Positions 1 to 21,224 of a stretch of 28,239 nt of DNA are shown piece after piece (within the stretch, counting starts at the first letter, position 1; every line of letters starts with the position of its first letter). The position numbers and the translations under genes were made by a program. Below the pieces are notes generated by a model. It ran no database searches. It was not told the DNA's origin and saw nothing but the letters and a program-made list of their open reading frames with translations. This stretch comes from a virus, in IMG/VR virus record IMGVR_UViG_3300012920_000195, positions 1-28,239 of that record, one strand, 5' to 3'.

Positions 1-200
1 AATGGGGTACACTCATTAGACCGTGGAACAATGTAGATAAAAAATTTATAGCTGCAATTTATAAAAAATTTAATTGTGAAGAATTAATCAAATATACATG
101 GAGCTGTATAGGCTATGCTGAACAAACAAATAATTTTACGCGCCCTTGTGGTAAATGTTATTGGTGTAAAGAAAAAATGTGGGGATTTAATCAAATATGA
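1..200 (+). CDS. PP-loop ATPase (QueC-like), C-terminal part only
   Basis: This reading frame is open from the window edge (codons in phase with position 3) and ends with TGA at 198-200, so only the last 65 residues are present. It carries a zinc-type cysteine set near the end: one Cys, 13 residues, then CGKCYWC, that is C-x13-C-x2-C-x2-C, followed by KEKMWGF. The same spacing and nearly the same ending occur in the N-terminal half of the protein at 1438-2883, which also has an intact PP-loop; this partial gene is therefore a paralogue of that half. QueC-type 7-cyano-7-deazaguanine synthases have a comparable C-terminal zinc cluster, but the true substrate is unknown. The stop codon overlaps the next start as ATGA, implying translational coupling. 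The nucleotide-binding motif would lie upstream, outside the window. Confidence 0.72.
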   Translation, partial: WGTLIRPWNNVDKKFIAAIYKKFNCEELIKYTWSCIGYAEQTNNFTRPCGKCYWCKEKMWGFNQI

Positions 201-1441
201 AATGGTTTTGTCCTCTTCCTTTTTATCACATTTATTCTAATTCCAATGGAAAGTGGGCAGCATGTTGCTTGTCTAAATCCCCAGGACATACTACCGAAAA
301 CACATCTTTAATGGAATGGTACAACTCAGAACATATGAATAATTTAAGAGATGAGATGATTGGTCTATCAAATTCAAGTGAAAATATAAATGCTTTTTGT
401 AAAATATGTGTGAATCAAGAAATAAATGAAGGCTCTTCTACTAGATTAAAATGGATTTCAAACCTTAAATCAGACAGAAAAAAAGGAGTTGATAAAACTG
501 TAGAAGAATACGTAAACACTAACAAAATATCTTTTAAAGACAATAACTATAGATTCTTAGAATTAAAATTAAGAATATTTGGAAATCTTTGTAATTTATC
601 TTGTTTTATGTGTTGGCCTCAAAATTCATCTTCAAGAATGAATGACGTAAACAAAATGGCAAATCCAATATGGAAGAAAATGCTAGTAGATCCAAGCATG
701 TCAAAATTTTTTAGTAAGGGTAAGTCATTAATGAAGGAACAGCCAGCAGATAAGTTTCGAACTACTATTGATGAAATACGATCATTTTCTAAAAATATAG
801 AATCAGTAAAAATAACTGGAGGCGAGCCTTTAATGTTAGACAGTCATTATGAACTATTAGATATGTTTATTGAAACTGGAGATGCTAAAGATATAAGATT
901 AAAATATCAAACTAATCTTACAAAATTTGATAGAGGAAAAAATAATTTTATAAGCTATTTGCACCAGTTTCGTTCAACACATATTTCTGCGTCTATTGAT
1001 AGTTATGGTATTTATGATGAATACTTAAGAAAAGGAACTGATTCTAAACTTGTAGCAAATAATTTAAAAGTGGTAGAAAATTTGGACAAAGTCACTGTAC
1101 ACATAGCTTCAACGGTTACTAATTTAAGTGTGTTAAGACTTAAAGAGTTTTATAAAAGATATAAAAATTATAAAATTGAAAGTTTCATTCTTACAACTCC
1201 TGAGTTTTTAAATATTAAACACTTACCAGATGAGATAAAAAAATTTTTGATAGAAGATTTAAAAGATACTCCAAACTTATATGAATATGATAAAATAAAA
1301 AATATGTTAAGCGAACCAAGAGATGAAGATAAATTTCAGCTAAGTTTAAAATACTTAATAGATACTGATACCTTATATGGCAGAAAAAAAGGAGTGTTTG
1401 ACTTGTGGCCAGAACTTAAACAATACTGGAGACATACATGA
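197..1441 (+). CDS. Twitch-domain radical SAM protein
   Basis: A 414-residue radical SAM enzyme. The N-terminus (residues 1-85) is a Cys-rich segment with C5, C23-C24, C68 and C71, of the kind that binds an auxiliary iron-sulfur cluster and occurs in N-terminal twitch-domain radical SAM proteins. The radical SAM core follows: the cluster motif CNLSCFMC (C132, C136, C139; CX3CX2C) and a GGEP motif at 208-211 for S-adenosylmethionine binding. It would reductively cleave S-adenosylmethionine to make a 5'-deoxyadenosyl radical; the substrate cannot be read from sequence. The start is set by an ATGA overlap with the PP-loop gene upstream, and its own stop makes an ATGA overlap with the PP-loop/radical SAM gene downstream, so the three are probably one transcript. 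Such enzymes occur in marine phage genomes beside sugar or nucleoside modification genes, but no pathway is assigned here. Confidence 0.85.
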   Translation: MKWFCPLPFYHIYSNSNGKWAACCLSKSPGHTTENTSLMEWYNSEHMNNLRDEMIGLSNSSENINAFCKICVNQEINEGSSTRLKWISNLKSDRKKGVDKTVEEYVNTNKISFKDNNYRFLELKLRIFGNLCNLSCFMCWPQNSSSRMNDVNKMANPIWKKMLVDPSMSKFFSKGKSLMKEQPADKFRTTIDEIRSFSKNIESVKITGGEPLMLDSHYELLDMFIETGDAKDIRLKYQTNLTKFDRGKNNFISYLHQFRSTHISASIDSYGIYDEYLRKGTDSKLVANNLKVVENLDKVTVHIASTVTNLSVLRLKEFYKRYKNYKIESFILTTPEFLNIKHLPDEIKKFLIEDLKDTPNLYEYDKIKNMLSEPRDEDKFQLSLKYLIDTDTLYGRKKGVFDLWPELKQYWRHT

Positions 1442-2883
1442 TAATTTCTCATAATCAATATTCTATAGATTTTCTTAAAGATGTTAATTTAAATGACCAT
1501 GACAGTGTAGGTATATCTTTATCAGGTGGTACCGATTCAGCCATGGTTTTCTATCTACTTTGCAAGTACGCCCCTCAATTATCGATAGTGCCTTTTACTA
1601 TGATTGAAGAAGGCCACCCTACTGCTCGTCCAAATAATATTTGGCACGTGGACGAAATATGTTTATACATGAAAGAAAAATTTCCTAAAGTAAATATTAA
1701 AGATGTCAGAGAATGTAGATTTAATCCAAAAGATCCAATACTTCATGAAGAAGCACTAGACCATATAAAAAGAAAAATAGTATCTGGAATAGAGCCGTAT
1801 GGTTACGTAAAATCGCTAGCCACTAATAATTTTAGAAATAAATTAATTGATGCCGGAGAATTTAGTCTGGTTTGTTCTGGTATGTCTATGAATCCACCGG
1901 TAGAAGATCAAAAAAAATATAAGTTTACACGAGTAGAATCAAGACGTAATCAATCAAAAGATGATGTTACAAATATAAAAAATAAAATAGTTTTAGGAAA
2001 AAAAATAGTTCATCACAATCCTTTTATTAACTCACATAAAAAAGTTATTGCAGCCTTCTATCACAAATATAATCTTATGGATGATTTATTTCCTTTAACT
2101 TCTAGTTGTGTTGGAACTGCAACAGCTACTGATTTTTTTACTAAGCCTTGTAGAGTATGTTTTTGGTGTCAAGAAAAAATGTGGGCATTTGGTTATTATG
2201 ATGGTAAATTAACAAATAATAACCCTTGGTTAAAAAAAAAGCATCGAAGTAAAGTTGGAATAAATATTGATATAACTCATCGATGCTTACTACAGTGCCA
2301 TAAGTGTATGAGACAACAGTTTCCAAAAATGCACATGAGAGGCAATGATATATCATTAAAAGCAATGAAAAAACTATTAGATTCGTATGTGCCTCAAATT
2401 GATTTTTGCGGTCAGATGGGAGATTGCATATATCATCCTAAATTTATCGACATACTAAAAATGTGCACTCAATATAAAGATAAAAGATTTGTTTTTCATA
2501 CTAATGGATCTCATAAACCTAAAAAATTTTGGAATCAAGTTATTGAGATATATAAAAATCAACCACGACTTAATCATAGATGGTGGATAGCACTTGATGG
2601 ATTGCCAGAGGAGAGTCATATATACAGAGTTAATCAAGATGGGCCAGCTGTCTGGGAAGTAATGAAACGTCTAGCTAAGTACACAAATGTATATTGGCAA
2701 TATATAGTATTTAAATATAATGAAAATGATATTGAAAAATGTAGAAAAATGGCAAGGGAAAATAATATTACTTTTCTTAAACTTATTTCTAGTAGATGGG
2801 ATGAAAATGACCCATTTAAACCATCGCTAAAATACACAATACCATCAAAACACGAATTACATGCTAAAAAAAATGAAACTTAA
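1438..2883 (+). CDS. PP-loop ATPase fused to radical SAM domain
   Basis: A 481-residue two-domain protein. Residues 1-255 are an ATP-pyrophosphatase of the adenine nucleotide alpha hydrolase fold: the PP-loop SGGTDSA is at 29-35 and a zinc-type cluster C224-x13-C238-x2-C241-x2-C244 closes the domain, as in QueC-like enzymes. Residues about 270-465 are a radical SAM core with CLLQCHKC (C283, C287, C290; CX3CX2C). In place of GGEP there is a CGQMGDC segment near 324-330, and an ALDGLPEE segment follows later, as in SPASM-type radical SAM proteins. The radical SAM half does not look like QueE, so a queuosine-precursor role is uncertain. The C-terminal Cys-rich domain usual for SPASM enzymes is missing from this frame but is encoded in the overlapping next gene. 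The start is coupled by ATGA to the preceding radical SAM gene. Confidence 0.85.
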   Translation: MIISHNQYSIDFLKDVNLNDHDSVGISLSGGTDSAMVFYLLCKYAPQLSIVPFTMIEEGHPTARPNNIWHVDEICLYMKEKFPKVNIKDVRECRFNPKDPILHEEALDHIKRKIVSGIEPYGYVKSLATNNFRNKLIDAGEFSLVCSGMSMNPPVEDQKKYKFTRVESRRNQSKDDVTNIKNKIVLGKKIVHHNPFINSHKKVIAAFYHKYNLMDDLFPLTSSCVGTATATDFFTKPCRVCFWCQEKMWAFGYYDGKLTNNNPWLKKKHRSKVGINIDITHRCLLQCHKCMRQQFPKMHMRGNDISLKAMKKLLDSYVPQIDFCGQMGDCIYHPKFIDILKMCTQYKDKRFVFHTNGSHKPKKFWNQVIEIYKNQPRLNHRWWIALDGLPEESHIYRVNQDGPAVWEVMKRLAKYTNVYWQYIVFKYNENDIEKCRKMARENNITFLKLISSRWDENDPFKPSLKYTIPSKHELHAKKNET

Positions 2884-3169
2884 TCCACAATGCATAAATG
2901 ATTATAAACAAATTACGTTATCTGCAACGGGCTGGGTATTGCCATGTTGTTGGTGCGATAATTCTACAAAAGATTTAAATCAGTTTAAAGCTCTTGGTTT
3001 TTTAGATTCTGGCTTAAAATTAGAAAATGTAAATAGCTTAGATGAAATTTTGACATCCGATCAATGGACTAATTTTTATTCTCTTTTAGATGAAAATGCA
3101 GAATCTGCACCAAAAGTTTGTAAATCATTTTGTGGAGTAGATTACAAAGCGCAAAAGTATGAAACATGA
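2861..3169 (+). CDS. Small SPASM-like Cys-rich protein
   Basis: A 102-residue protein with a cysteine pattern like the auxiliary-cluster (SPASM) tail of radical SAM enzymes: C11, PCCWC at 28-32 (Cys 29, 30 and 32), and CKSFC (87 and 91). The stretch from NPQC through GWVLPCCW matches the usual start of such a domain. It overlaps the preceding PP-loop/radical SAM gene by 23 bases in the +1 frame, and the overlap contains eight A in a row. If the two frames are joined, the product reads as a normal radical SAM-SPASM protein. So this is a separately translated subunit, the result of slippage, or a fused gene broken by a one-base length error. ATG at 2861 is used as start; ATG at 2873 is an alternative. 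The stop is coupled by ATGA to the glycosyltransferase gene. Confidence 0.72.
   Translation: MLKKMKLNPQCINDYKQITLSATGWVLPCCWCDNSTKDLNQFKALGFLDSGLKLENVNSLDEILTSDQWTNFYSLLDENAESAPKVCKSFCGVDYKAQKYET
2866..2873 (+). other. Run of eight A at a domain junction
   Basis: Eight consecutive A lie in the overlap between the radical SAM frame and the SPASM-like frame. Loss of one A, or a +1 shift, would join the two in frame. It could be a slippage site or a sequencing or assembly length error. Confidence 0.5.
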
Positions 3170-3750
3170 TAAGAATCATAGCTGTACGAACTGGTACAAA
3201 ATATAATCAGTGGTACGAAGATAATCTAATTTATATGATCGACAATTACTCTAATATTAAGTATGATATATTAGAAGTAGTAAGAGATAATAAATTTGAT
3301 GATGATAGAGGTGTCTTTAATAAACTACAAATGTTTGATAAGTTTACCGAATCACATATAACCAACTTATATTTTGACTTAGATGTATGTATTAAAAAAG
3401 ATTGTAATTATTTTTTAAAAGAAGAGTTTACGTTATGTCATGCTTGGTGGAGAGATCCGCATCACACTCCTCTTAATTCTTCTATAATGTCGTGGAAAGG
3501 TGATTGTAGTCACATATATAAAAAATTTATAGAAGATCCTGAATATTATATGTTTAAGTACCACAGAGGAATAGATCAATTTATCTATGAAAACATAAAA
3601 TATAACACGTACAAAGACAAGTCACTGTATTATTCATTCAGAGAAGCGCCTGAAGAAAAAGATGCTTCAATATGTTTATTTAATCAAAGGTACGAATTTA
3701 TGAAAAAAGAAGGGTGGTGGACTAATTACTTTGTTCAAAAATATCAATAG
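3166..3750 (+). CDS. GT-A-like glycosyltransferase
   Basis: A 194-residue protein that looks like a small nucleotide-sugar-dependent glycosyltransferase. The N-terminus (IIAVRTGTKYNQWYEDNL, residues 4-21) resembles the first strand and helix of a GT-A family in which a short Rossmann-like start is followed by a metal-binding acidic motif. Here that motif is YFDLDVCI, with D71 and D73 as the likely metal ligands. A conserved-looking HAWWRDP segment (92-98) and NSSIMSW (104-110) follow. Known members transfer sugars to surface polysaccharides or other acceptors; acceptor and sugar here are unknown. It is the last gene of the accessory cluster, coupled by ATGA to the SPASM-like gene. Its last 29 bases overlap, tail to tail, the end of the opposite-strand gene at 3722-4219. 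No terminator hairpin was seen between the two. Confidence 0.68.
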   Translation: MIRIIAVRTGTKYNQWYEDNLIYMIDNYSNIKYDILEVVRDNKFDDDRGVFNKLQMFDKFTESHITNLYFDLDVCIKKDCNYFLKEEFTLCHAWWRDPHHTPLNSSIMSWKGDCSHIYKKFIEDPEYYMFKYHRGIDQFIYENIKYNTYKDKSLYYSFREAPEEKDASICLFNQRYEFMKKEGWWTNYFVQKYQ

Positions 3751-4219
3751 CTATTTTAGTTGCTTGTCTTATATTTTCAGCTTTTCTTAATTCAGATTTC
3801 ATCTTTCTGCTTTTACAATTTTTTACAAAGTCTAATTCAAATATTTTTAATTTAAATACAAAAAGAGTATTTTTAGAATCACTATTATCATCTTGCTCGT
3901 TCTGCTCAAATAATACCTTTACAATTGCGTTATTGATAACATTTTTATCTTGAAAGTCTTGTAATATTCCTTGATCTTTTGCTATTTGTATGGCTTGATT
4001 TTCAAAAGCCTTTTGAGTATTTTTTATAAATTTATACGTGTCTTCGTGTAATTTATCGATATCAGTATGAGTTAATAAGTTCTCCCAATTAGGATCACCA
4101 TCTTTAGCTTCGATATATTCAACTCTCTCAACTTTTCCGTCAGTCCAATAAGATTCTACTATAGTTCTTGCATCATTATAAAAATGAGCTCTTACAAATT
4201 CATGTCCAGGGATTGCCAT
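3722..4219 (-). CDS. Conserved marine T4-like phage protein
   Basis: A 165-residue protein, the last gene of the long minus-strand late block. The N-terminus (GHEFVRAHFYNDARTIVES) and the basic segment near residues 136-148 (KSRKMKSELRKAE) resemble a family that recurs in marine T4-like phages next to virion genes. No enzymatic motif, signal peptide or membrane segment is visible; the middle is acidic and probably helical. Position beside fibre genes suggests a structural or assembly role, but that is inference. A strong ribosome-binding sequence AAGGAG sits eight bases before the ATG, the best such site seen in this block, which suggests independent initiation. The 3' end overlaps the convergent glycosyltransferase gene by 29 bases. 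Confidence 0.65.
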   Translation of the reverse strand: MAIPGHEFVRAHFYNDARTIVESYWTDGKVERVEYIEAKDGDPNWENLLTHTDIDKLHEDTYKFIKNTQKAFENQAIQIAKDQGILQDFQDKNVINNAIVKVLFEQNEQDDNSDSKNTLFVFKLKIFELDFVKNCKSRKMKSELRKAENIRQATKIAIDIFEQSN

Positions 4220-4221
4220 AA

Positions 4222-5145
4222 TTAACTCCTTGTAATCTTTAAAAAATAAGTGTTTATAGTTTGAGGTGAACCACTAGGAAATTCTTGAGTACGATAATCA
4301 TTAGCATTAACAAATCTTTGTTGATACGTACTTCCATCTAGTCTCGTATCAACCATACCACTACCTCTGTTATTGCCAGTTCCATTTATAGAATAATTAA
4401 TTCTAGATCCTGCAGTGTTAACTGTATGATGCCTCATTTCTGCTAGCAGCATAGCATCAAAGCTTGATGTAGAATAAGTTTGCAAATCGTTTCCGGTTGT
4501 CACTTGAAATGGGACAGTGATTGATGGTGCACTACCTTGGTTTGTTCTAAACAAATAGTAGTTAGTAATAGTAGTTGGCTGATCTTGCGTCTCTGGAATT
4601 CCACCTGCTGTATAAGCTGCAGAGTTTGCACGAGTATCAGTAAATACAGGAGTTGCAGATATTAAAGTATGATCTGTTAAAGAAGTTGCCGTGTGTATTC
4701 TAAATGTTCCGTCTCTATCAGTTCCATCAACTAGACTCGTGATAGCCTGAGTTATAAAAGTATCAAAAACATCAGTTGCTGTCATAGCTTGAATAGCTCC
4801 GCTTCCATCATAATATACAGGATATAATCTATTATTTGTATCAGTTGGAGCGCTTAATGATGCGTTAACTTGACTTATCTTATCAAAAACTATTGGAGTT
4901 ACTTGAGCAACGTTAGGGGTCTCACCTGCCGTGTCAAAATTAGTAGCATCAGTTGTACTGGCACCAGCTCGCATTCTAGTGTCTGACATTGAATCTAACG
5001 TGCCGCTACTTCCAACAACACTTAACGTTACACTGGGATTGCTTCCATGAACATACACACAACGATCTTGTATCGCTGTGACCATCGCTGACGTCATTTC
5101 TCTGAGGTTATTACCATCATTATATAATGGCCTTCTAACTGCCAT
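4222..5145 (-). CDS. Virion structural protein, marine T4-like
   Basis: A 307-residue protein rich in Thr, Ser, Ala and Asn with few charged residues, typical of beta-rich phage fibre or decoration proteins. It starts MAVRRPLYNDGNNLREMT; that opening and the ending NTYFLKITRS look like a recurring marine myovirus virion family. No catalytic motif is visible. It lies between a small fibre-like gene (four-base gap upstream) and a small unknown gene (two-base gap downstream), inside the late structural operon. Role as a peripheral baseplate, fibre or head decoration component is inferred from composition and context only. Confidence 0.6.
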   Translation of the reverse strand: MAVRRPLYNDGNNLREMTSAMVTAIQDRCVYVHGSNPSVTLSVVGSSGTLDSMSDTRMRAGASTTDATNFDTAGETPNVAQVTPIVFDKISQVNASLSAPTDTNNRLYPVYYDGSGAIQAMTATDVFDTFITQAITSLVDGTDRDGTFRIHTATSLTDHTLISATPVFTDTRANSAAYTAGGIPETQDQPTTITNYYLFRTNQGSAPSITVPFQVTTGNDLQTYSTSSFDAMLLAEMRHHTVNTAGSRINYSINGTGNNRGSGMVDTRLDGSTYQQRFVNANDYRTQEFPSGSPQTINTYFLKITRS

Positions 5146-5149
5146 GATA

Positions 5150-5641
5150 TTAAACCCCTGCGCCGTGTATCGTCTTTAGTGTACTTCCTGCTGAATCTTT
5201 TATTAAGAGTGTTGATAGTGTTTTAAGCTGCACTGAACTTACAGCATCATCTGCTATTTTCGTTTCAGTTATAGAAATTGGTTCTATCATAGAAGTGTTG
5301 ATAGTATTTGGTGGTACAAAAAACCTACCTTGCGAAGAATCAAAACCTATTCCATTAGCACTGTCTTTTTGAAAATTAGACATAATGCTTGTTTCACCTG
5401 AATCTGCTTTAATTAGAGCAAGCACTTCTGCAGAATCCATAGCGTTAGCTTGAATCAAGTTTATAACATCAGCTGAATCAACCTTATTTACTTGAGTATT
5501 GATTTCATTTATTGCCGCTACTAAATTACTTTTATCTGTGGTAGTTAACGTTGCTTTGTCACCTAGATCACTAGATACCGTATTTGTCTTAGTAACCAGA
5601 GTGGTTACTGGATCTGATAGATTAATTGTTGTTACTGCCAT
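5150..5641 (-). CDS. Short tail-fibre-like structural protein
   Basis: A 163-residue protein. Residues about 25-50 (LGDKATLTTTDKSNLVAAI) carry a segment that recurs in marine phage fibre proteins, usually followed by a coiled or trimeric stalk. The middle has two DSAEV/DSADV stretches (about 56-76) with hydrophobic spacing compatible with a coiled coil, and the C-terminal part (PNTINTSMIEPISITETKI) resembles fibre-protein segments ahead of a receptor tip. It overlaps the small coiled-coil gene upstream by 20 bases and is followed four bases later by another structural gene. A fibre or fibre-adaptor function is inferred; no receptor-binding domain can be named. Confidence 0.6.
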   Translation of the reverse strand: MAVTTINLSDPVTTLVTKTNTVSSDLGDKATLTTTDKSNLVAAINEINTQVNKVDSADVINLIQANAMDSAEVLALIKADSGETSIMSNFQKDSANGIGFDSSQGRFFVPPNTINTSMIEPISITETKIADDAVSSVQLKTLSTLLIKDSAGSTLKTIHGAGV

Positions 5642-5840
5642 CGAGTTTCTCTATTATTTTACCTAACATGTTTTTAATATCACTTACTTCATTCTTTAGG
5701 TTATTTATATCTTCTTCTTGCTGCTTCTTTAAAGCCTTTCTTTTTCGAGCTGCTTCAATTTCTGCCTTATTCACGTTTAACACGACTCCTGTTCTAGTGT
5801 CTTTAACGTAGCCGTCATGACCATCAACTTTAACAAACAT
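5622..5840 (-). CDS. Small coiled-coil structural protein
   Basis: A 72-residue protein. The N-terminal third (MFVKVDGHDGYVKDTRTGVV) is short-stranded and looks like a small beta unit. Residues about 26-68 form a lysine- and glutamate-rich coiled coil (heptad hydrophobics in INNLKNEVSDIKNMLGKII). Proteins of this shape sit among the fibre and wedge genes of marine T4-like phages. It has a 1-base TAATG overlap with the 533-residue gene upstream and a 20-base overlap with the next fibre-like gene, so it is embedded in the operon. An antisense 61-codon frame over the same bases is judged a shadow. Function unknown; an oligomerising connector is plausible. Confidence 0.65.
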   Translation of the reverse strand: MFVKVDGHDGYVKDTRTGVVLNVNKAEIEAARKRKALKKQQEEDINNLKNEVSDIKNMLGKIIEKLDGSNNN

Positions 5841-7441
5841 TAAACACTCAGCGCTATAGCTCTTAAGCTTGATAGCTGTGGTACTCTTGCACTATTAGTA
5901 CTTCTAAAAACTATTTTAAGCTGAAACTTAGTAAACGCCGGAAGAGAACCATTTTGACCACCGATTAAAAAAGTGTGTTGTCTGTAAACAGCTAAGTTAT
6001 CAGTGTTTGGAATTGCTTGTTCTATTGTAGCTAAAGTATAATTTTTAGTTTCTATTTCTTCGTCGGCCGTTGCAGTTCTAAAATATAATTGAAAGTCCGT
6101 TCCATTTGGCTTATTAGCATTTATTAATACTTTAAGACCAACTGCGTCATTAGCCAAATTGATAACCTTTGTTAGGTGCTTAGCGGCAGCAGACCCATTT
6201 GGATTAGTTTCATCTACGTATTTCAATGGTACGTTAAATCCACCTGTTGTTGCAGCAGAATCTTGCCTATCTATAACGTTATCATATAAGCTTGCCGATG
6301 TTCTTTGCATATCTATCATAGGCGATATATTAGAATCAGCAGCAGGCCTTCCCATAGTGATTTGAAACTCTAAAGATTTAGTGTTAGTTTCAGTAGATAA
6401 CTCGATGGTTTCATCAGAATCATTTAGTACTACATAAGCTTTTCTAGAAAAATTGTTTTCACCTATTTTAATTGGATCAAAGTTATCATCTTTATCATGA
6501 CTACCTTCTTCTCCTGCAAAAGATTTACCGGTAGTTCCCTTCATGGCAGCGTTTATAGTTGTGTCTAATGGCTGTAAAATTTCTATCTTTGGTACAATTA
6601 TAGAATATGGTATATTCTTTGTAGCTAAAACTTGTCCGCCTCCTCCTATTGCATCTGAATCTGCACTAGAATCAGCATTAAAAGCGTATCCAGACCAATC
6701 TACTTTAGTTACATTATATTTTTTATTTAAAGTTGAAGCAAAGATACCACCAACTCCATTAGAATCCACTCCACTTAGCGTTACACCACTTCCTACTTGT
6801 AAACCATGATTTAAGTGTCTTACAAATACTTCAGCACTATTTTTTGTAGTTTTAATTGGTGGACTAATTAAATGCTGTTTAGGAACTGCAGCGTTTTTAA
6901 GTGAAACTGTTCCGGATGTGTGCTTAAAAGAAGCTCTGTGAAGCCTAAAAGTTAGATCTTGATTTTGAGCTGGAGTAAAAGTAACTCCATTTTGAGTGTA
7001 AAATAAACTTCCAGATATTGGATTTTTATTTGTTCTTCTCTCAGTAGATCCAAATTGAAATTCGTCTATTTCTGCAATATAAAGAGAATAATCTTTAGAA
7101 TCAGCTATAACCACTAGTGCGTAATCTTCAAACCCCTTTAAAAATACTGGTTCTTCAAAAGTAAAAGATGTGGCGTTTAACTCTGGTCCAACAGTATCAA
7201 CTACAACGTCTGCAGCTGGTTTAACGACTGTAGACCCTGGAAGAACATGCCTAGAAGATGGAACACCATTAACCATAGGCCTAAGTTCAATTCTTACTGG
7301 AAGTTTTGTAGTAGCGGGATTATCTCTAGCAGCAAAGAAAAGATCAACTTTAGTTGCGTATATTCCTTTCGGTTCATCTATAAAAAATGACTGAGCTATT
7401 GGCTGTTTATTTACGTTATATCCTAAACTAGTTACTGGCAT
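5840..7441 (-). CDS. Baseplate/fibre-associated virion protein
   Basis: A 533-residue structural protein. It opens with a segment common in marine T4-like virion proteins (QPIAQSFFIDEPKGIYATKV, residues 13-32), followed by a beta-rich domain with PVRIELRPMVNGVPSSRHVL (48-67). Later it has a KHLTKVINLAND segment and LKVLINANKPNGTDFQLYFR, both seen in large fibre-type proteins of cyanophages. It starts 15 bases after the end of the DUF4815 gene with a GAAGGA ribosome site, and is followed by a 1-base TAATG overlap. It probably occupies the outer baseplate where T4 has gp10-gp12, but no similarity to those can be claimed from reading alone. No enzyme motif is seen. Confidence 0.68.
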   Translation of the reverse strand: MPVTSLGYNVNKQPIAQSFFIDEPKGIYATKVDLFFAARDNPATTKLPVRIELRPMVNGVPSSRHVLPGSTVVKPAADVVVDTVGPELNATSFTFEEPVFLKGFEDYALVVIADSKDYSLYIAEIDEFQFGSTERRTNKNPISGSLFYTQNGVTFTPAQNQDLTFRLHRASFKHTSGTVSLKNAAVPKQHLISPPIKTTKNSAEVFVRHLNHGLQVGSGVTLSGVDSNGVGGIFASTLNKKYNVTKVDWSGYAFNADSSADSDAIGGGGQVLATKNIPYSIIVPKIEILQPLDTTINAAMKGTTGKSFAGEEGSHDKDDNFDPIKIGENNFSRKAYVVLNDSDETIELSTETNTKSLEFQITMGRPAADSNISPMIDMQRTSASLYDNVIDRQDSAATTGGFNVPLKYVDETNPNGSAAAKHLTKVINLANDAVGLKVLINANKPNGTDFQLYFRTATADEEIETKNYTLATIEQAIPNTDNLAVYRQHTFLIGGQNGSLPAFTKFQLKIVFRSTNSARVPQLSSLRAIALSV

Positions 7442-7456
7442 ACTATTATTCCTTCT

Positions 7457-10400
7457 TTATGTCCACGATCCATTACCTGCTCCACCACCTGGGTCAGATG
7501 AGTATCCACCGTCGTCACTATTATTATCATTATTACTATAGTTATTATTATTTGCTTGAACAGCTGCAGCAAGTCCTGGGTCTACTTGCCCTGGCTCATA
7601 ACCTACTGTTATAGTGGATGTGTTTGAAACTGAAGTTTTACCAGCACCTATAGTTTCATCTTCCAAACCCATTGAATGAAAGTTACCAGAGATTTCAGGA
7701 TCTACAGTAAATGATACTGAAAAATCGTCAACCTGCGCCATATTCATACCGTCAGTAACTTGTGCATCGTTAGCGAAGCTAACACCTCCTGTGACGGCCG
7801 TAGCTTGAGCGTCATTAGCATAATAAAAATTAGTACCTGCTGGTATGGTGTAAACAGTGTCAAATACTGGTGGTCCTCCATCTGGAGTATTACCTAAGTT
7901 TTGTCTTCTTTCCACTTTAACTCCCATCAAGTGAAGTATTCTAGAAGAAGCTACAGTTCCAGTTCTTGTTTCTAAAGTTCCTGCTGCGGTATAGTTAGCT
8001 TCTGCTACGCTTGACGCGTTGTTTGGATTAGGAGCACTAATATCTAGTAATTGAATTTCTCTTGTTCCTGTTTTAAATTTTAATTCATTATTATTTGGAA
8101 TTATAAGTGATCCAATTATTTCGCCATTATCGTCAGAAGTTAATATACCCGCAGTGTCTGGATGAGTTGTTTTTCCAAATAAAGTATTTCCTGGGTCTAA
8201 TGGATTATCACTATGCCTCGTAAAAGTTGATTCTTCTCTAACATAATTAGCCATGTTTTGACCGTCAAAAAACATAAAATGTTGAGTGTTAGGTCTTAAT
8301 CCTTCTGCCCTAAAAAATATTTTTCTTGCTCTTATATATGGTATAAGAGTACTCTGGACTACTTTATCTTCTATGATATCTAAGACACTCTCTTCGGCTA
8401 TAACTCTGTTAACCATTGAAGATATTTCATTAGTCATAGATCCTATTCCTAAATTTTCTACAGACTCTCCATTCCAGTTCCAAGACCAGTTGTCCCAGTT
8501 ATAAGCATTAACACCACTTATTCTCGTAGTCCCTGGTACAACTTTATCATTAATTCTTTCGATATCTTTCCATTCATCAGAGGCCGGAGATAATATTAAA
8601 TTTCCTTGAAAAATACTGGCTGCAAAAGGATTAATAGTTATGGCTTTTGTAGCTAAATCTTGATTAATATAAGGAGTTTCTCCAAACTTAAGATAGATAT
8701 TATCACCGTATTTTTGAACGTTTGTAGATGCAGCAGAATCATAAATTAATTTTATATTATCTTCAGTAAACATCGGACGAGCTCTATGACGAACTGGATC
8801 TATCGAAGCTCTATGGCCTCTACTAAAAGAAGCGTCAGTGAGGCTATGATCTGTAAAGTTGTCAATTACAAATCCTGCTTTAAGTCTATCGTTTCCTGCT
8901 GAATCTATTATTTGTAAATTTTTAGTGTCATGCTCTAATAAAGTTAAAGAAGTTAACTCTTCTAACTGATCTATTCTTTTTTCTAATTGACTTATATCTT
9001 TCATAGTAAATCTTCTATGATTGATTTTTACAGACTTAGTATCTCTAGCATCGAAAGTATTTGCGCCTAAATACACATCGTATAAACCTAACGTATTTTC
9101 TGGTTTTGGTGGAACTTGAGGATTAAATCCAGGGTTTCCTCCAATAAATTTTAATACTCCTTCTGTGTCTATTACGAGCTTGCCTGCTTTTCCTAAAAAG
9201 TATGTTACGTCTGCATTTATTAAAGTATTTGGTTGCGGTACTTCTATTGCTCGAGCTCCAGAACCTGTATTAGTAAAGTTTCCGTCAGAATCCATGACTG
9301 ATCTAAAATCTAAAGCGTTTCTTAAATGAATAACATTTCCAGTACTTAGCCTTATACTAGGAATTTTTGAATAATCTACTGAACCAGAATATGAATTAGC
9401 AGCAAAAAAGTCTCCAGCTTCACTATGAGAAAAATATTGATAGCCTACTTGAACTGCAGTAGAAGGAGCTGTTTCTCCGGGTTTTAATCTTAATTTAGCT
9501 AATCCATAATAACTTGGAAACTGCGCAAAATCTATTTCAAATCTACTACCTATGTCTGAGCTGTCACTTAATAAGTTAACTCTATCAACTTTATAAACGT
9601 CTGCTTGTCTTAAATTAATAAATTTAGATCCACCTCCATCAGACTCAACTAGATAGTTTTGAACTTTAGTTTCTAAAGTTTTAGCTTTTACTGAAGCATT
9701 TGCTTTATTGACATACGCTAGCACTTTAATACTACTACTAGCAGGAAGACCGCTAATAGTCATTGATTGACCGCCTGATGCAGTAAAAGACAATCCAGAA
9801 GGTATTATATCGCTATCAGTTTTTGCTACTATCCAATCGTTAGTGTTGGTAAAAGTTTCACCTGTAGCTGATAAAGGAGTTAGCGATGCTTGTCCAGCTC
9901 CATTTGATAGGGCAGTAAATTCTCTTTGTACTGTAACTTGTATATCTGTAAGTGTTTGAGGTCTTGGTTTTGGAAGTGCAAATATAGAACTGTTTCCAGT
10001 GACATCTTTTAAAACAGCTTTATTATTTTCAAGATCAAGATTAAAATAATTTGTAGAACTATCTCCAATAGATTGAACATTTCTAAAAGCCTGTCCTGCA
10101 TTCATTTGAACGTCAAATAAGTGAAATCTCAATTTTGAGCCATCTTGTGTTACATGTTTAATTCTTGCACTACCTATAGTTGTTCCATTGTGACTTGAAT
10201 CATTTTTTAAATCGTATTGCTTAAATAAAGTAGGTATTCCTTTAGTGGCGCTATCTGTGCTAGGGTTTACAAAAACAAAGTTACCAAAAGTTGCTGGTAC
10301 TACTTCATTTTCAATAGTGGTCGTCGTAGTAGATTTTGGAATTCTTATTACAGTCGGAAAAGATCTTGAAGCTCTATGACCCTCAACCACTACTACTCCG

Positions 10401-11389
10401 TCGCTCACTCTTAATTGCAAATGCGTATTTGCGGAATCAGCTTGAAAATTAGAGATGAAAGGTTTTACAATGTAATCTCCAGAATTTTCTTTTATTCGTT
10501 CGGCTAAAACTTTATTTGGTACGTTAAATGCGTCACTAAGCGAAATTGCATTGTAGATAATACCTCGTTTTATCGTGACGACATGTATAAAATTTTCATC
10601 TGAATCGACATCTTTTCTCTCAGTTATAGTAAGACGTATTCTGTATCTATCTGCACCAGGGGCCGATATGTCTGGAGTAGCTCCAGAGTTATCATACAAA
10701 TCTGTATCATCTGATACTGTAACTATATCTTCAACTGCTTTAAATCCTAAATCTGTAGTTACAACGTCTGAGTATTTTGATATTATTGTAGATTGATCTT
10801 CAGTGAATACAAAATGGCCTCTTGCATAGTAAATACCAGATTTTAATGTTGCTAGTATTCCTACTCCTGTTGCAGGATTAGCTAGTGTATTAGTAGTTTG
10901 CACAGTTAAAGTTTCACCAAGTGCTGTTCCAGCACCGGTCATGTTCTCTCCAGCAGTCATTCTTAAAGTTGTCGTTCCTGCTGTAGCGGAAGAAGTATTT
11001 ATGTATTGAACATAAAGAGTTGCTGGATCTGATCCAGTGGCTTGAACTACTTGAAGAACTTTAACTTGTATAGATGACGTAGTACCAGTAAATATTTGAC
11101 CAAGCAGTATTGAAGTGTCAGTAGGTAAATTGTTTACAGCAGTGTTAAGTTTTATAAATTCATACTTTTGATTAAGGTTAGCTCCCCCAGGTTTTACGAC
11201 AGCACCTTCTTTGTATATGTTATTACCAAATCTTGATATTTGATTCTGTAAGAAAGTCTGTATTTGAGTTAATTCTCTTGCTTGTAATGATTTACCTGTA
11301 TTAAATAATATTCTATGATAGTTATCACTATCGCGAAAATCATCTTTATACGTAGTTGAGAATGTAGTGTTGGTTAAAGTTGTCGCCAT
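7457..11389 (-). CDS. Large DUF4815-type virion/fibre protein
   Basis: At 1310 residues this is the largest protein in the window. The N-terminal signature RILFNTGKSLQARELTQIQ (26-44), continuing to NIYKEG, is characteristic of the DUF4815 family of marine myovirus structural proteins. A long beta-rich body follows, with GTTSS and AGENMTG segments like those in gp8 and gp53 here. A helical stretch (KDISQLEKRIDQLEELTSL) may trimerise. Near the end, RPNTQHFMFFDGQNM is a known-looking motif of this family. The last about 35 residues are a low-complexity Asn/Asp/Gly/Ser tail. The gene starts after a TAAGG ribosome site and lies between gp8 and the 533-residue protein. A role as a fibre attached to the baseplate periphery is inferred from family context. 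Confidence 0.8.
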   Translation of the reverse strand: MATTLTNTTFSTTYKDDFRDSDNYHRILFNTGKSLQARELTQIQTFLQNQISRFGNNIYKEGAVVKPGGANLNQKYEFIKLNTAVNNLPTDTSILLGQIFTGTTSSIQVKVLQVVQATGSDPATLYVQYINTSSATAGTTTLRMTAGENMTGAGTALGETLTVQTTNTLANPATGVGILATLKSGIYYARGHFVFTEDQSTIISKYSDVVTTDLGFKAVEDIVTVSDDTDLYDNSGATPDISAPGADRYRIRLTITERKDVDSDENFIHVVTIKRGIIYNAISLSDAFNVPNKVLAERIKENSGDYIVKPFISNFQADSANTHLQLRVSDGVVVVEGHRASRSFPTVIRIPKSTTTTTIENEVVPATFGNFVFVNPSTDSATKGIPTLFKQYDLKNDSSHNGTTIGSARIKHVTQDGSKLRFHLFDVQMNAGQAFRNVQSIGDSSTNYFNLDLENNKAVLKDVTGNSSIFALPKPRPQTLTDIQVTVQREFTALSNGAGQASLTPLSATGETFTNTNDWIVAKTDSDIIPSGLSFTASGGQSMTISGLPASSSIKVLAYVNKANASVKAKTLETKVQNYLVESDGGGSKFINLRQADVYKVDRVNLLSDSSDIGSRFEIDFAQFPSYYGLAKLRLKPGETAPSTAVQVGYQYFSHSEAGDFFAANSYSGSVDYSKIPSIRLSTGNVIHLRNALDFRSVMDSDGNFTNTGSGARAIEVPQPNTLINADVTYFLGKAGKLVIDTEGVLKFIGGNPGFNPQVPPKPENTLGLYDVYLGANTFDARDTKSVKINHRRFTMKDISQLEKRIDQLEELTSLTLLEHDTKNLQIIDSAGNDRLKAGFVIDNFTDHSLTDASFSRGHRASIDPVRHRARPMFTEDNIKLIYDSAASTNVQKYGDNIYLKFGETPYINQDLATKAITINPFAASIFQGNLILSPASDEWKDIERINDKVVPGTTRISGVNAYNWDNWSWNWNGESVENLGIGSMTNEISSMVNRVIAEESVLDIIEDKVVQSTLIPYIRARKIFFRAEGLRPNTQHFMFFDGQNMANYVREESTFTRHSDNPLDPGNTLFGKTTHPDTAGILTSDDNGEIIGSLIIPNNNELKFKTGTREIQLLDISAPNPNNASSVAEANYTAAGTLETRTGTVASSRILHLMGVKVERRQNLGNTPDGGPPVFDTVYTIPAGTNFYYANDAQATAVTGGVSFANDAQVTDGMNMAQVDDFSVSFTVDPEISGNFHSMGLEDETIGAGKTSVSNTSTITVGYEPGQVDPGLAAAVQANNNNYSNNDNNSDDGGYSSDPGGGAGNGSWT

Positions 11390-17076: not shown

Positions 17077-19119
17077 TCAAGTTACAACAATATTTTCTAT
17101 ATTTTCAGTTTCGTCTAAAATCTCTAACAATTCTTCAGTGGTCTGCACAACGTTATTAAATCTTGTTTCAATTTTATTATTGTAAGTTACCGTCCATGGA
17201 GCTAGTATTTTAGGCATAATTAATATAATACAAGCGTGTAGAGAACCATCTGGATTATAAGTGTCATAATCTAATATCATCTTTTCAAAATTTACATGAT
17301 CTTTCCAATATAACGCAAGATCATATGTTTTTTCTACGGCTACCTCGCCATCTAATCCATACAATCCATAAACTACAGCCTGACCGTTTGTTAACAGATG
17401 ATTAATACCATCTGTTTTATCTAGTGTTTCTCCAGATTCTGCAACATAAAGACCTTCTAAAACTTCAAGTCTAAAGTTTTCAAATTCAGACGTACCAGTA
17501 GAAAAATTTATAGTCTTCATAGCTTCTGCATGAAGCATGTATTGTTTAGCTAAGTTCTTTCTTTCTGAAACTTCTGTTAAATGATTCATTGTTACTGGAT
17601 CTGCATGACTACCTAAAAATTTAGATAAAGTTATGCCATCAGCAAGTCTAGTTCTTGGATTTATATCAGTTTGAAATACTGGATTATACTTGTGATCAGG
17701 TACAAAAACTGTTTTAAAGAAAAAGTTAGTTTCACCAGATTGTACTTTAAATCTTTTAACTAAACCATCTTGCGTTCCAATAGATTCAGTTCCAATCATA
17801 GCGTTCTTTTCAGGTCCAACTATTCTACCAAATTTTGCTGGTGTAGGAACAGCAAAATTCTTTGATATCAATCCTTCTGATACTATCGCTCCAGTGAAAG
17901 TTTGATTTTTAAGATTATTTGGATCTCTTAATTTAGATCTAGCCTTTTCAGTAGAAAGTCTTACAGGAGAAACTCCACCATAATTTGCTGATAGATCTAT
18001 TGTATTAACAAAGTCGTCATTTGGATCTATCTGAATTCTTCTTATTCCTAAGTCAGATTTATCTAAAAGATCTGTTATTATAGTAGTGTTAGGATTAACT
18101 GTATTTTTATCGGTAGCAGTAGCTACAGTTGGAGTACCGCCTGTGCCAGCAGGTCCTATAGCTGCAGTTCCAGCTTTATTCGCCTCATTAGCTTTTTCGG
18201 CTACTCCAGTTAAATCACCGTGAAATGTAGTAGCATGCATCGAAGTAGAATTAACTCTAGGGATGTGCGCTGTTTTTCCATAGTACACAATCTCGTGGCC
18301 ACCAATTGTTCCACTGTCTCCAATAACCGACAAAGATGACGCATTAATAATTGCATTTTCAGTAGATATTATTACTCCATTTTCAGATGTTAATGTGTAT
18401 TCTGATTTCACGTTTTGTTCAAAAGTTCCGTTAATGTCTACTTCAACGTTACCTTTAACAGTTGAAAATTTATTACCTATTATTGTTTCAGTTTGAGAGC
18501 CTTTTATACTTTCTGCTTTACTTCCTTTAATTGTCTTTGTATGATTCTTTGTAACTTCTTGAGTGTATGAGCCTAATACTTCTTCATCAGCTTCTCCAGC
18601 TACTTTAACAAAATAATTACCACCTACTTCTAAATTAAAGTCACCAGCAACTCTCATGCTTAAGTTGCCATTATAAACTATCTCGCCATCACCTTCAACG
18701 ATTACTTTCTCGTCTGCGGCAGTAACTCTTATTGAGTTTTTCGTAGAGCTTATAATCACACTTCCGTCTGCTCTCATTTCTACGCCAGAACCTGTCTTAT
18801 GGCGTAACATTATTCTTTCACGACCAAAAGTATCGTCGTACTCTATTATATGTCCAGAAGCTGTTTGTTTGACTTGATTCATAGTATAGTTTGAAGCTGG
18901 CTCTTCTTGAATTTCTAAGTCAACTCCTTTTGTTCCACCACCAAGATAAACACTTTTAGTATTAACGCCTGTAGCTATGTTATTTACAGAACTTACTCCT
19001 ACGTAATCTGCCCTTGGAAATTTTCCTGCAGGATCGCTTCTTCCGTCATCAGGATCTTTAACAGAAGCAAATTCTGCAGGATCGATAAATAAGTCAGCGT
19101 TTTCTAGTTCTTTCCCCAT
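17077..19119 (-). CDS. Baseplate spike protein, gp5 beta-helix-like
   Basis: A 680-residue protein that appears to supply the needle part of gp5. Residues about 85-265 are a run of short valine/glycine/charged repeats (for example EVGGNYFVKVAGEADEEVLG and TKTIKGSKAESIKGSQTETI) like the trimeric beta-helix of T4 gp5 and VgrG spikes. A HATTFHGDLTGVAEKANEA segment (295-313) resembles a common phage fibre motif. The C-terminal part (about 485-640) is a globular domain that might be a peptidase M15-like fold, but no zinc-binding SxHxxGxAxD motif is seen, so activity is doubtful. No OB fold or lysozyme is in this protein; those are encoded in the gene at 21224-22174. It begins with an AGGATAAAAA leader and is followed by the gp25 promoter. 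Confidence 0.75.
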   Translation of the reverse strand: MGKELENADLFIDPAEFASVKDPDDGRSDPAGKFPRADYVGVSSVNNIATGVNTKSVYLGGGTKGVDLEIQEEPASNYTMNQVKQTASGHIIEYDDTFGRERIMLRHKTGSGVEMRADGSVIISSTKNSIRVTAADEKVIVEGDGEIVYNGNLSMRVAGDFNLEVGGNYFVKVAGEADEEVLGSYTQEVTKNHTKTIKGSKAESIKGSQTETIIGNKFSTVKGNVEVDINGTFEQNVKSEYTLTSENGVIISTENAIINASSLSVIGDSGTIGGHEIVYYGKTAHIPRVNSTSMHATTFHGDLTGVAEKANEANKAGTAAIGPAGTGGTPTVATATDKNTVNPNTTIITDLLDKSDLGIRRIQIDPNDDFVNTIDLSANYGGVSPVRLSTEKARSKLRDPNNLKNQTFTGAIVSEGLISKNFAVPTPAKFGRIVGPEKNAMIGTESIGTQDGLVKRFKVQSGETNFFFKTVFVPDHKYNPVFQTDINPRTRLADGITLSKFLGSHADPVTMNHLTEVSERKNLAKQYMLHAEAMKTINFSTGTSEFENFRLEVLEGLYVAESGETLDKTDGINHLLTNGQAVVYGLYGLDGEVAVEKTYDLALYWKDHVNFEKMILDYDTYNPDGSLHACIILIMPKILAPWTVTYNNKIETRFNNVVQTTEELLEILDETENIENIVVT

Positions 19120-19127
19120 TTTTTATC

Positions 19128-21224
19128 CTATGTGTCTATTTGATTCGCATTTTGTATTGCAGTTGCTGTTCTTTGTATTTGAGTATCTAACTGTTGAGTT
19201 CCTTCTACAGCGGTGTCTATATTATCCGCAAAAGAATTTAATTTAGTATCAAATCCAATGACACTAGTGTCTAATAAATTTTTAGCGTTTCCAGCTGGCA
19301 AATCAATAGCTTTATTTAAATCTCTTAGTTTGTTATTAAATTCTCTTATAGCTAGAGGTGTGTCTGTTTTTAATGCATCTTGAGCAGCTGCTAGATCATT
19401 TTTATATTTATCACTTTTAATCTTGTGCGCTGCTTCACGATTAATCTTGTTAAAGTCAAGAGAGAAAGTACCTGAATTAGACGGCTTTAAAACTTTCTTT
19501 GGCTTGGTAATACACTGTGCTACTTTACTTGGCATTTCTGTAAAAGAAGATGGATCCTCAATAATAAATTGTCTTTTATGCTTTGCATTTACTCTATCCT
19601 TTACGTTAAATCCTGGGCCCATATAATCATTATCTATTTCTGAATCTGCAATAACTTCTCCACCTGGGAATACTTTAAAAAATTCATTTATGAACATATC
19701 AAACGTCTTAAACTGTTCTTCATTTACTGGCTTCAAAGGCGTAGCCACAAAAGCTATTTTTAATCCACTTAAAGCAAATGGAGCATATTCTGAGTTACGA
19801 GTCTGATCAATGGGGCGGCCTCTTTCAAGATCTCCGTTTCTTTTAATAATGTAGTGTGGTTGTATTCCATATAATTTAAATTTTCTATTAATTATTTCTA
19901 GTGCTTTTTTGCCAGCATCAGCAGAACCTGTAGTAACACTAATTTCATTTTCTAAATTTTTTAAGTCAAACTTTTTACTGAGTTCATGAATTTTTTTAGC
20001 GTTAGCTTTTTCAGGCGGACCATCTAAGTGCGAAGTCCAACCAACAACTAAACATCGTATTGAATCTGCTTCTTTTGATCTTGTTCTAGTTGAGTTAGCT
20101 ATTTCAAGATATAATTCTTCAGAAGAAGATACTGTGGTAAAAACATAATTAGGAGACGTATTATATCCAGCAAATCCACTTTGTGCTGCTGTGATATCAA
20201 AAATACTACTTGGCTTAACATTGCTTGAAGTCGCTTCGCCTTTACTTAAATTTGACCTTACGTTTGTTTGAGCATTTTTTATTAGACTAGTAAGATTATT
20301 AGATGGTAAATCTATATTAGAAGATTTAAGTTCAGCAAGAGTATTTCCAGCATCGGTTGGATTTTGTATTACACTTCGTGCTTTACTTATCAAGTGAGCA
20401 AAAGCGTTTTGCTTTGATCTTCCAATGCCGCCAAGTAAAGACTTTGGATCTAAAGTACTTCCACAGTCGTTTAAAGATTTTATCTTTTCTTTATATACTG
20501 TTTCTACTTCTCTGTTAGCTCTTAATTTAGGTTCGTTATTAGGTCTTAATACTTCTAAAGCTTTAGTAGGATTTATAGAAGAACCAGTTGAAAATTCTCT
20601 AATCTTTGATTCTGATTTAGTTGGAAATATTTTCTTAGCTGCATTTTTTATAGATGCAGGATTAAATTGAGTAGCTATTCTTCTTAAAGCACCGTTTCCT
20701 GTACTTGATCTTTTTGTTATTGATGTTATCGCTGATATTTGAGTACTTACTTCTGTCACTCCATCTCCAAAACTTCCAGTCGTCTTGCAAAATAAAGTCT
20801 TATCGGTAAGCTTTTGAAATGGTTTTGCGAAATCTTGAACAGCTTTTACTCCACCTACGGTTTGAAAATCTTTTACAGTAGATCCTTCCAAGCTTATCTT
20901 ATCAGCTTGAAAGTCTTCTGCTGAAGCCTGCAACTTTGCTCTAAAACTCGCAAGTCCTAGTGCAGCATCATGTCCTATAACAGGAGTTATCTCGTCTATA
21001 GTTGATTGTGTTTCATAAGATACGTTAACATCAGGAAAAGCTTTAAAAAATTCTATACTACCGTTTTTTACATCCCAGTTACCAGACTTGTTTAAAGTAG
21101 TAAAGAAAGTCTTTCCTTCATCTTTCGTAGTCACACTTGTTATATTAGGACTCTCGCCAGCGTCTTTAGGAAGTGGGAAAGTTTGACCCTTAAAGACTCT
21201 ACCTAATTTTAGTAATCTAGCCAT
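19128..21224 (-). CDS. Large amidase-fold-like baseplate protein, likely inactive
   Basis: A 698-residue protein between the lysozyme gene and the spike gene. Residues 1-385 are helical and Ser/Lys rich with no recognised domain. Residues about 388-545 resemble an N-acetylmuramoyl-L-alanine amidase (Amidase_2) fold: CLVVGWTSHLDG (391-402), IQPHYIIKRNGDLERGRP (454-471), LSGLKIAFVA (485-494), and EVIADSEIDNDYMGPGFNV (523-541). In active amidases the first and last of these carry the zinc His, His and Cys; here those positions read Gly, Ser or Asp, and Met. It is therefore probably a non-catalytic, peptidoglycan-binding or structural relative. The C-terminal 100 residues are helical, possibly coiled coil. 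It begins with a TAATG overlap on the lysozyme gene, so the two are coupled. Confidence 0.62.
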   Translation of the reverse strand: MARLLKLGRVFKGQTFPLPKDAGESPNITSVTTKDEGKTFFTTLNKSGNWDVKNGSIEFFKAFPDVNVSYETQSTIDEITPVIGHDAALGLASFRAKLQASAEDFQADKISLEGSTVKDFQTVGGVKAVQDFAKPFQKLTDKTLFCKTTGSFGDGVTEVSTQISAITSITKRSSTGNGALRRIATQFNPASIKNAAKKIFPTKSESKIREFSTGSSINPTKALEVLRPNNEPKLRANREVETVYKEKIKSLNDCGSTLDPKSLLGGIGRSKQNAFAHLISKARSVIQNPTDAGNTLAELKSSNIDLPSNNLTSLIKNAQTNVRSNLSKGEATSSNVKPSSIFDITAAQSGFAGYNTSPNYVFTTVSSSEELYLEIANSTRTRSKEADSIRCLVVGWTSHLDGPPEKANAKKIHELSKKFDLKNLENEISVTTGSADAGKKALEIINRKFKLYGIQPHYIIKRNGDLERGRPIDQTRNSEYAPFALSGLKIAFVATPLKPVNEEQFKTFDMFINEFFKVFPGGEVIADSEIDNDYMGPGFNVKDRVNAKHKRQFIIEDPSSFTEMPSKVAQCITKPKKVLKPSNSGTFSLDFNKINREAAHKIKSDKYKNDLAAAQDALKTDTPLAIREFNNKLRDLNKAIDLPAGNAKNLLDTSVIGFDTKLNSFADNIDTAVEGTQQLDTQIQRTATAIQNANQIDT

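Follow-up and report, generated by a model that had tools for sequence, protein, structure and literature searches.

Five consecutive ORFs on the plus strand lie at the left end of the window (the whole stretch of 28,239 nt that was analysed, a 28 kb IMG/VR fragment), and this cassette is cut at the contig start (Table 1). Their coordinates agree with those of an earlier reading of the same DNA made from its letters (the sequence-only reading), and its five ORFs, domain calls and three ATGA overlaps were all borne out by ORF positions, family matches and fold; genes 3 and 4 overlap too, by 23 nt (2861-2883). The window beyond the cassette is a T4-like baseplate and tail region, the phage setting that had been proposed.

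Table 1. Features of the cassette and of its right border (positions in the window)
Feature	Position	Strand	Evidence or remark
Gene 1, C-terminal fragment of QueC-like PP-loop protein (PP_A)	3..200	+	5' open, remainder lost at contig start
Gene 2, N-terminal-twitch radical SAM (N_Twi_rSAM)	197..1441	+	NF033640; CxxxCxxC 590-616, GGEP 818-829
Gene 3, fusion of QueC-like PP-loop and radical SAM (rSAM1)	1438..2883	+	Domain matches, fold
Gene 3, PP-loop domain	about 1438-2205 (residues 1-256)	+	SGGTDS 1522-1539; C-x13-CxxCxxC 2107-2169
Gene 3, rSAM1 domain	about 2245-2856 (residues 270-473)	+	CxxxCxxC 2284-2307
Gene 4, small stand-alone SPASM-type Fe-S protein	2861..3169	+	PF13186; regular rSAM1 partner
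Gene 5, predicted GT-A glycosyltransferase (GTlast)	3166..3750	+	Fold model; DxD 3376-3384; usually closes island
ATGA stop/start overlap, genes 1-2	197..200	+	Sequence
ATGA stop/start overlap, genes 2-3	1438..1441	+	Sequence
ATGA stop/start overlap, genes 4-5	3166..3169	+	Sequence
m5, conserved convergent gene	3722..4219	-	Right border of island in relatives
Virion genes st4, st12, st11 and VrlC-like protein in two ORFs	4222..11389	-	Conserved border of host recognition cluster

The island and its border

Cut short where the contig begins, the cassette most probably represents the right-hand end of the hypervariable host recognition cluster in a marine T4-like phage of the pelagimyophage/Kyanoviridae type. 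The homologous island of Pelagibacter phage Mosig (EXVC030M, Kyanoviridae), which is grown on Pelagibacter HTCC1062, closes with the same glycosyltransferase and convergent gene, VrlC coming next, and the right border m5, st4, st12, st11, VrlC is common to Mosig and many viral contigs. These contigs were retrieved from IMG/VR by two-row alignments with Mosig homologues (single window proteins searched directly against IMG/VR gave no match, their patterns being too specific), and they show a modular, variable island with a constant right border. Within the window the VrlC-like protein (5840-11389) is split into two ORFs of 1310 and 533 aa, as it is in the relatives L045 and L049; the Mosig counterpart is a single gene of about 2,045 aa. 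The gp5-type baseplate hub/lysozyme of the window also seems divided (17077-22174): the ORFs at 21224-22174 and 17077-19119 each correspond to a different part of phrog_430, and a 698-aa gene sits between them.

A hypervariable host recognition cluster of pelagimyophages, located between VrlC and gp14 and holding GT8 genes and radical SAM cassettes, is described in the available part of Zaragoza-Solas et al. 2020 (PMC7029224), and the island itself is thus already known; 12 radical SAM genes have also been noted in one T4-like genome (PMC5332604). The window matches that cluster, as far as its description is available, in border genes, in the VrlC side and in variability, the side towards gp14 falling outside the contig. 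PP-loop genes, PP-loop/radical SAM fusions, a split SPASM protein and the core module are not named in the same part of the source (PMC7029224). Within the partial literature covered, the PP-loop/radical SAM module inside the known island appears to be undescribed, the new part being a tight unit of QueC-like PP-loop, twitch radical SAM, radical SAM and separate small SPASM proteins.

The Mosig island has neither PP-loop nor twitch genes, which are therefore optional modules. Sugar-type neighbours occur in the islands of relatives (DegT above its cut-off, GT8 just under its cut-off), a NodU-type carbamoyltransferase is annotated in the Mosig island, and methyltransferase and nitroreductase-like proteins are encoded in islands of relatives as well. 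A domain of about 100 aa without Pfam match (c33; L019:12675-12983 and relatives) is found alone or fused to a DegT aminotransferase, a PP-loop protein (L096) or a methyltransferase (L035), and is perhaps a carrier or adapter. Beside the Mosig island, on the opposite strand (L003:4702-10955), oxygenases, an aminotransferase, a peroxiredoxin and a desaturase are annotated.

Protein families of the cassette

Gene 1 scored 19.3 bits against PF06508, under the 22-bit cut-off, and is 69% identical to an intact PP-loop protein of the viral locus L051 (4856-5494), which identifies it as the C-terminal end of a QueC-like PP-loop protein; it ends in SC-x13-CxxCxxC-x-EKMW. A PP-loop domain of the window likewise stays under the gathering score of 22 (16.8 bits), and some relatives exceed it (e.g., 30.5 bits in L096). 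All 24 full-length members carry the SGGxDS P-loop (one as SSGxDS), and 21 of the 24 the Cys cluster, with variable spacing (x13 in the window as against the canonical C(x)8CxxCxxC zinc motif). None of the 24 has the motifs YxQxHxxE, VPxRN or YPDC, published as canonical for QueC (PF06508 cluster 1; PMC13329287), and the motifs (Y/F)xQ(x)5E of QatC/Cap9, YxDC of Cap9 and CGxCxxRR of QatC are absent from all 24 as well. The closest structures to the fold model (pLDDT 90.5) are QueC and Cap9. The family shares its P-loop, a C-terminal Cys cluster and its fold with the QueC/Cap9/QatC proteins of PF06508, but differs from them by the missing signature motifs, the C-x13-CxxCxxC spacing of the window, a terminal ExxW, the lack of a nearby QueD and a distribution almost confined to uncultured marine phages.

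Two queries found no member of this PP-loop family among 50,697 phage records; a viral scan, with an alignment built from loci that had been retrieved via rSAM1 or the glycosyltransferase, found 347 relatives. The search of 84,980 cellular genomes, with one peptide pattern only, returned five loci, of which two contain phage tail genes (L126, L127) and two the same island genes (L125, L128). A cellular origin was looked for in this way and set aside, the family being almost absent from cellular genomes. The sole locus that looks possibly bacterial, L129 (662-2607) on an alphaproteobacterial MAG contig, has a PP-loop gene with an rSAM1-like gene directly after it, flanked by genes that resemble dnaJ and clpA by eye; at E 1e-20 the family is missing from 288 of 289 genomes of that class, and the pair is possibly a cellular relative of the PP-loop/radical SAM module.

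Gene 2 is a full-length member of NCBIfam NF033640 (N_Twi_rSAM; 280.5 bits, cut-off 170, residues 2-411 of 414), a model whose name carries no reaction; here its members are fused to PP-loop proteins or lie next to them. The Cys residues are invariant in the family alignment. The twitch part weakly matches (E 0.0015) the twitch of BtrN, a 2-deoxy-scyllo-inosamine dehydrogenase, but is N-terminal here; BtrN works beside a DegT-type aminotransferase. In the C-terminal half of gene 3, the Cys residues of the radical SAM cluster motif CxxxCxxC are invariant across 24 aligned sequences, and gene 4, also with invariant Cys, matches SPASM (PF13186) with 24.3 bits (cut-off 21.5). Because 66 of 76 SPASM genes have rSAM1 adjacent or fused to them, and the SPASM domain is elsewhere fused to glycosyltransferase-like proteins, comparison of the sequences suggests that rSAM1 and the small SPASM protein are a radical SAM enzyme with its auxiliary domain on a separate polypeptide, probably tied to glycosyl transfer.

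A twitch radical SAM domain and a NodU-type carbamoyltransferase are joined in one 960-aa protein in L009 (2645-5527) and in similar ORFs. L197 (8830-10188) has an A-type Fe-S carrier gene (PF01521) close to the compact radical SAM operon, and the gene beside this carrier gene looks by eye like a sulfotransferase (SMPRSGSHY motif, without a supporting Pfam match).

Gene 5 has no Pfam match, and a confident model (pLDDT 95.2), the top structural matches of which are GT-A glycosyltransferases, predicts that it belongs to this class; the FDLD (DxD) motif is invariant in its family, which has at least 198 relatives. Its best match among solved folds is the glycosyltransferase of capsid glycosylation in PBCV-1 (2p6w, 2p72; 17-18% identity), an enzyme of an algal virus that likewise has the GT-A fold, although matches as distant as these (TM about 0.6) are uninformative on the acceptor.

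Linkage and timing in related phages

A radical SAM gene was present within 8 kb in 35 of 36 non-redundant viral loci anchored on the PP-loop gene (the exception begins at a contig end; all co-occurrence counts rest on such anchored searches), and in loci anchored on the glycosyltransferase the comparison of PP-loop with twitch genes gave 12/13 versus 13/30 (p=0.003, uncorrected, 15 pairs tested). Fusions were seen of PP-loop with twitch (several contigs), PP-loop with rSAM1 (the window and L147-L149), rSAM1 with SPASM, SPASM with glycosyltransferase, twitch with carbamoyltransferase, DegT with c33 and PP-loop with c33. As the same architecture is found in L147-L149, an assembly artefact is an unlikely source of the gene 3 fusion; L147 also repeats the order PP-loop, twitch, PP-loop/rSAM1 fusion, SPASM, and its fusion protein is 33% identical to that of the window. 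Gene order, adjacency and fusions recur across many distantly related viral contigs, so that the arrangement is more than chance. The functional coupling of PP-loop and radical SAM proteins proposed in the sequence-only reading is supported by the 35 of 36 loci and by the two kinds of fusion, and the genes of the cassette do co-occur in related phages.

Not all PP-loop genes are found beside a sugar transferase. Seventeen PP-anchored loci are compact operons of nitroreductase (NTR), twitch, SPASM, rSAM1 and PP-loop genes (some without twitch, one with twitch only) that contain no glycosyltransferase, DegT or carbamoyltransferase and are located within the baseplate gene block. Among eight searched records with such a separate operon, GTlast was found elsewhere in six, which indicates that operon and glycosyltransferase island share a genome even when apart; in the three regions that were read, GTlast closes an island of c14, rSAM1, SPASM, DegT, c33, rSAM19, carbamoyltransferase, methyltransferase and GT8 beside VrlC. 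We therefore rejected an operation of the PP-loop operon without the sugar island, as most of the same genomes carry the island elsewhere, and the sugar transferase keeps its place in the set, since it recurs in the loci and is carried by the same genomes where the operon is separate. Four large contigs with PP-rich islands have no GTlast-type glycosyltransferase.

Of the 77 genes that open a cassette run, 23 have the T4-late motif TATAAATA, described for cyanophage late genes (PMC2984593), no more than 60 nt upstream, compared with just 10 of 567 inner genes; in the PP-anchored set the motif is found at only 6 of 27 starts as against 7 of 383. Over the whole window its count is not above chance, and only the position at the cassette starts of relatives is informative. 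This enrichment points to expression like that of virion genes, and the cassette is probably expressed late, the timing being read from relatives since the window's own cassette promoter lies off the contig.

Candidate product and acceptor

Enzymes of the PP-loop family adenylate a carboxylate, and radical SAM enzymes oxidise, rearrange or couple by radicals; the DegT, carbamoyl-, methyl- and glycosyltransferases of the relatives point to a sugar. The functional claims made here for the cassette rest on such homology. The PP-loop and radical SAM enzymes travel together, and probably do so to make an unusual, decorated sugar destined for the virion or the surface of the host. In the scheme that we favour with moderate confidence, the cassette would be part of a modular and probably late pathway for the synthesis and attachment of an unusually tailored sugar, with a virion protein as the likeliest acceptor. 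The QueC-like PP-loop domains would adenylate a carboxylate (e.g., of a uronic acid) to yield an amide, amidine or similar group, and the same intermediate might then be oxidised, rearranged or coupled by radical chemistry, the work of the twitch enzyme and of rSAM1 with its SPASM partner (a core and an auxiliary Fe-S domain, each on its own polypeptide); the fusions could assist channelling. In relatives, the DegT aminotransferase, NodU-type carbamoyltransferase, methyltransferase and nitroreductase-like proteins may add more groups, and the finished sugar would be transferred by the terminal GT-A enzyme to a protein of the virion, for instance a tail fibre, or, as second choice, to a host surface glycan; sugar substrate, reaction order and acceptor are those that we infer. 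Mycobacteriophage virions carry glycans on subunits of the capsid and the tail tube (Freeman et al. 2023, cited in PMC12619734), where, in contrast to the window cassette, PP-loop/radical SAM tailoring goes unmentioned in the available part of that source.

Modification of the host surface is consistent with most of the same facts. The same sugar-tailoring pathway might place its product on the lipopolysaccharide or capsule of the host and so block adsorption of rival phages, and superinfection exclusion of this kind was proposed for the glycosyltransferases of the cluster in the available part of Zaragoza-Solas et al. (PMC7029224; the lock-out idea is also found in PMC5332604). The GT8-type glycosyltransferases, DegT, carbamoyltransferase and methyltransferase do resemble O-chain genes, but with late-type motifs at the cassette start exclusion would have little time to act, the islands that were read showed no recognisable genes for a lipid carrier, flippase or polymerase, the island lies among tail fibre genes, and the closest structure to the glycosyltransferase is a capsid glycosyltransferase. 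We regard this outcome as rather unlikely, and the late motifs, the position at tail genes and the PBCV-1 fold match tilt the choice slightly towards the virion, with the tail fibre slightly favoured over a host surface glycan. A sugar might also be dispensed with altogether: peptides are frequent substrates of radical SAM/SPASM enzymes, and Cap9 and QatC, fold neighbours of the PP-loop protein, act on proteins, conjugating an acid to a protein N-terminus, both of which count against a sugar. Radical SAM/SPASM enzymes and the QueC-like ligase would then modify a tail or baseplate protein of the phage, a proposal with which the closeness of the PP-loop fold to Cap9 and the GT-free operons inside the baseplate gene block agree. 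It is made improbable by the glycosyltransferase island still carried by most genomes with GT-free operons, by the fusion of the SPASM domain to glycosyltransferase-like proteins, by the absence of QatC/Cap9 motifs, and by the fact that no precursor peptide was identified.

DNA had been named in the sequence-only reading as one possible target of a modified group, and QueC-like PP-loop and radical SAM enzymes do recall QueC and QueE; carbamoyl- and glycosyltransferases are also known in DNA hypermodification. Searches of 14 records, among them complete Mosig and six IMG/VR contigs >100 kb, found no QueD, FolE or TGT (PF01702, against which DpdA may score poorly), and QueD was in none of 10 additional records. 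The thymidylate synthase/hydroxymethylase family PF00303 occurs in just 4 of the 14 records and is absent from complete Mosig, so these searches lend no support to 7-deazaguanine or hydroxymethyl-pyrimidine routes. Together with the missing QueC motifs, the searches make 7-deazaguanine unlikely, in agreement with the earlier view that the cassette does not match the known phage gene set for this base, and no complete known pathway was found upstream in relatives (the window's own upstream region is off the contig). Since the late-type motifs at cassette starts also disfavour DNA, we consider hypermodification of its bases, including 7-deazaguanine derivatives, very unlikely; of the proposed synthesis and attachment of a modified group, the coupling of the enzymes and the membership of the sugar transferase were upheld and the DNA target was not. 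A role in defence or counter-defence (Qat/CBASS-like or viperin-like) is scarcely credible: weak similarity to pVip is seen in the twitch radical SAM enzyme (22.5 bits) and in rSAM19 of the island (41 bits), and the PP-loop fold is near Cap9, but the pVip matches are partial, the PP-loop, SPASM and glycosyltransferase proteins match none of the PADLOC models, no partner of the CD-NTase, ATPase or nuclease type was recognised, and the island adjoins tail genes.

The families of the cassette genes recur in hundreds of viral contigs from the sea, the phages being relatives of those that infect SAR11, and they take up much of the island that is believed to control host recognition. We put forward only tentatively that the combination of a QueC-like ligase, two radical SAM enzymes and a separate SPASM protein is a phage-restricted module for a new sugar or protein modification without cellular counterpart, decorating marine virions. 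The compact operons and the fusions amount to small gene sets that are directly testable. If the product is indeed a new decorated virion glycan, these phages would hold an abundant and unexplored radical enzyme chemistry, and a new layer would be added to marine phage-host recognition.
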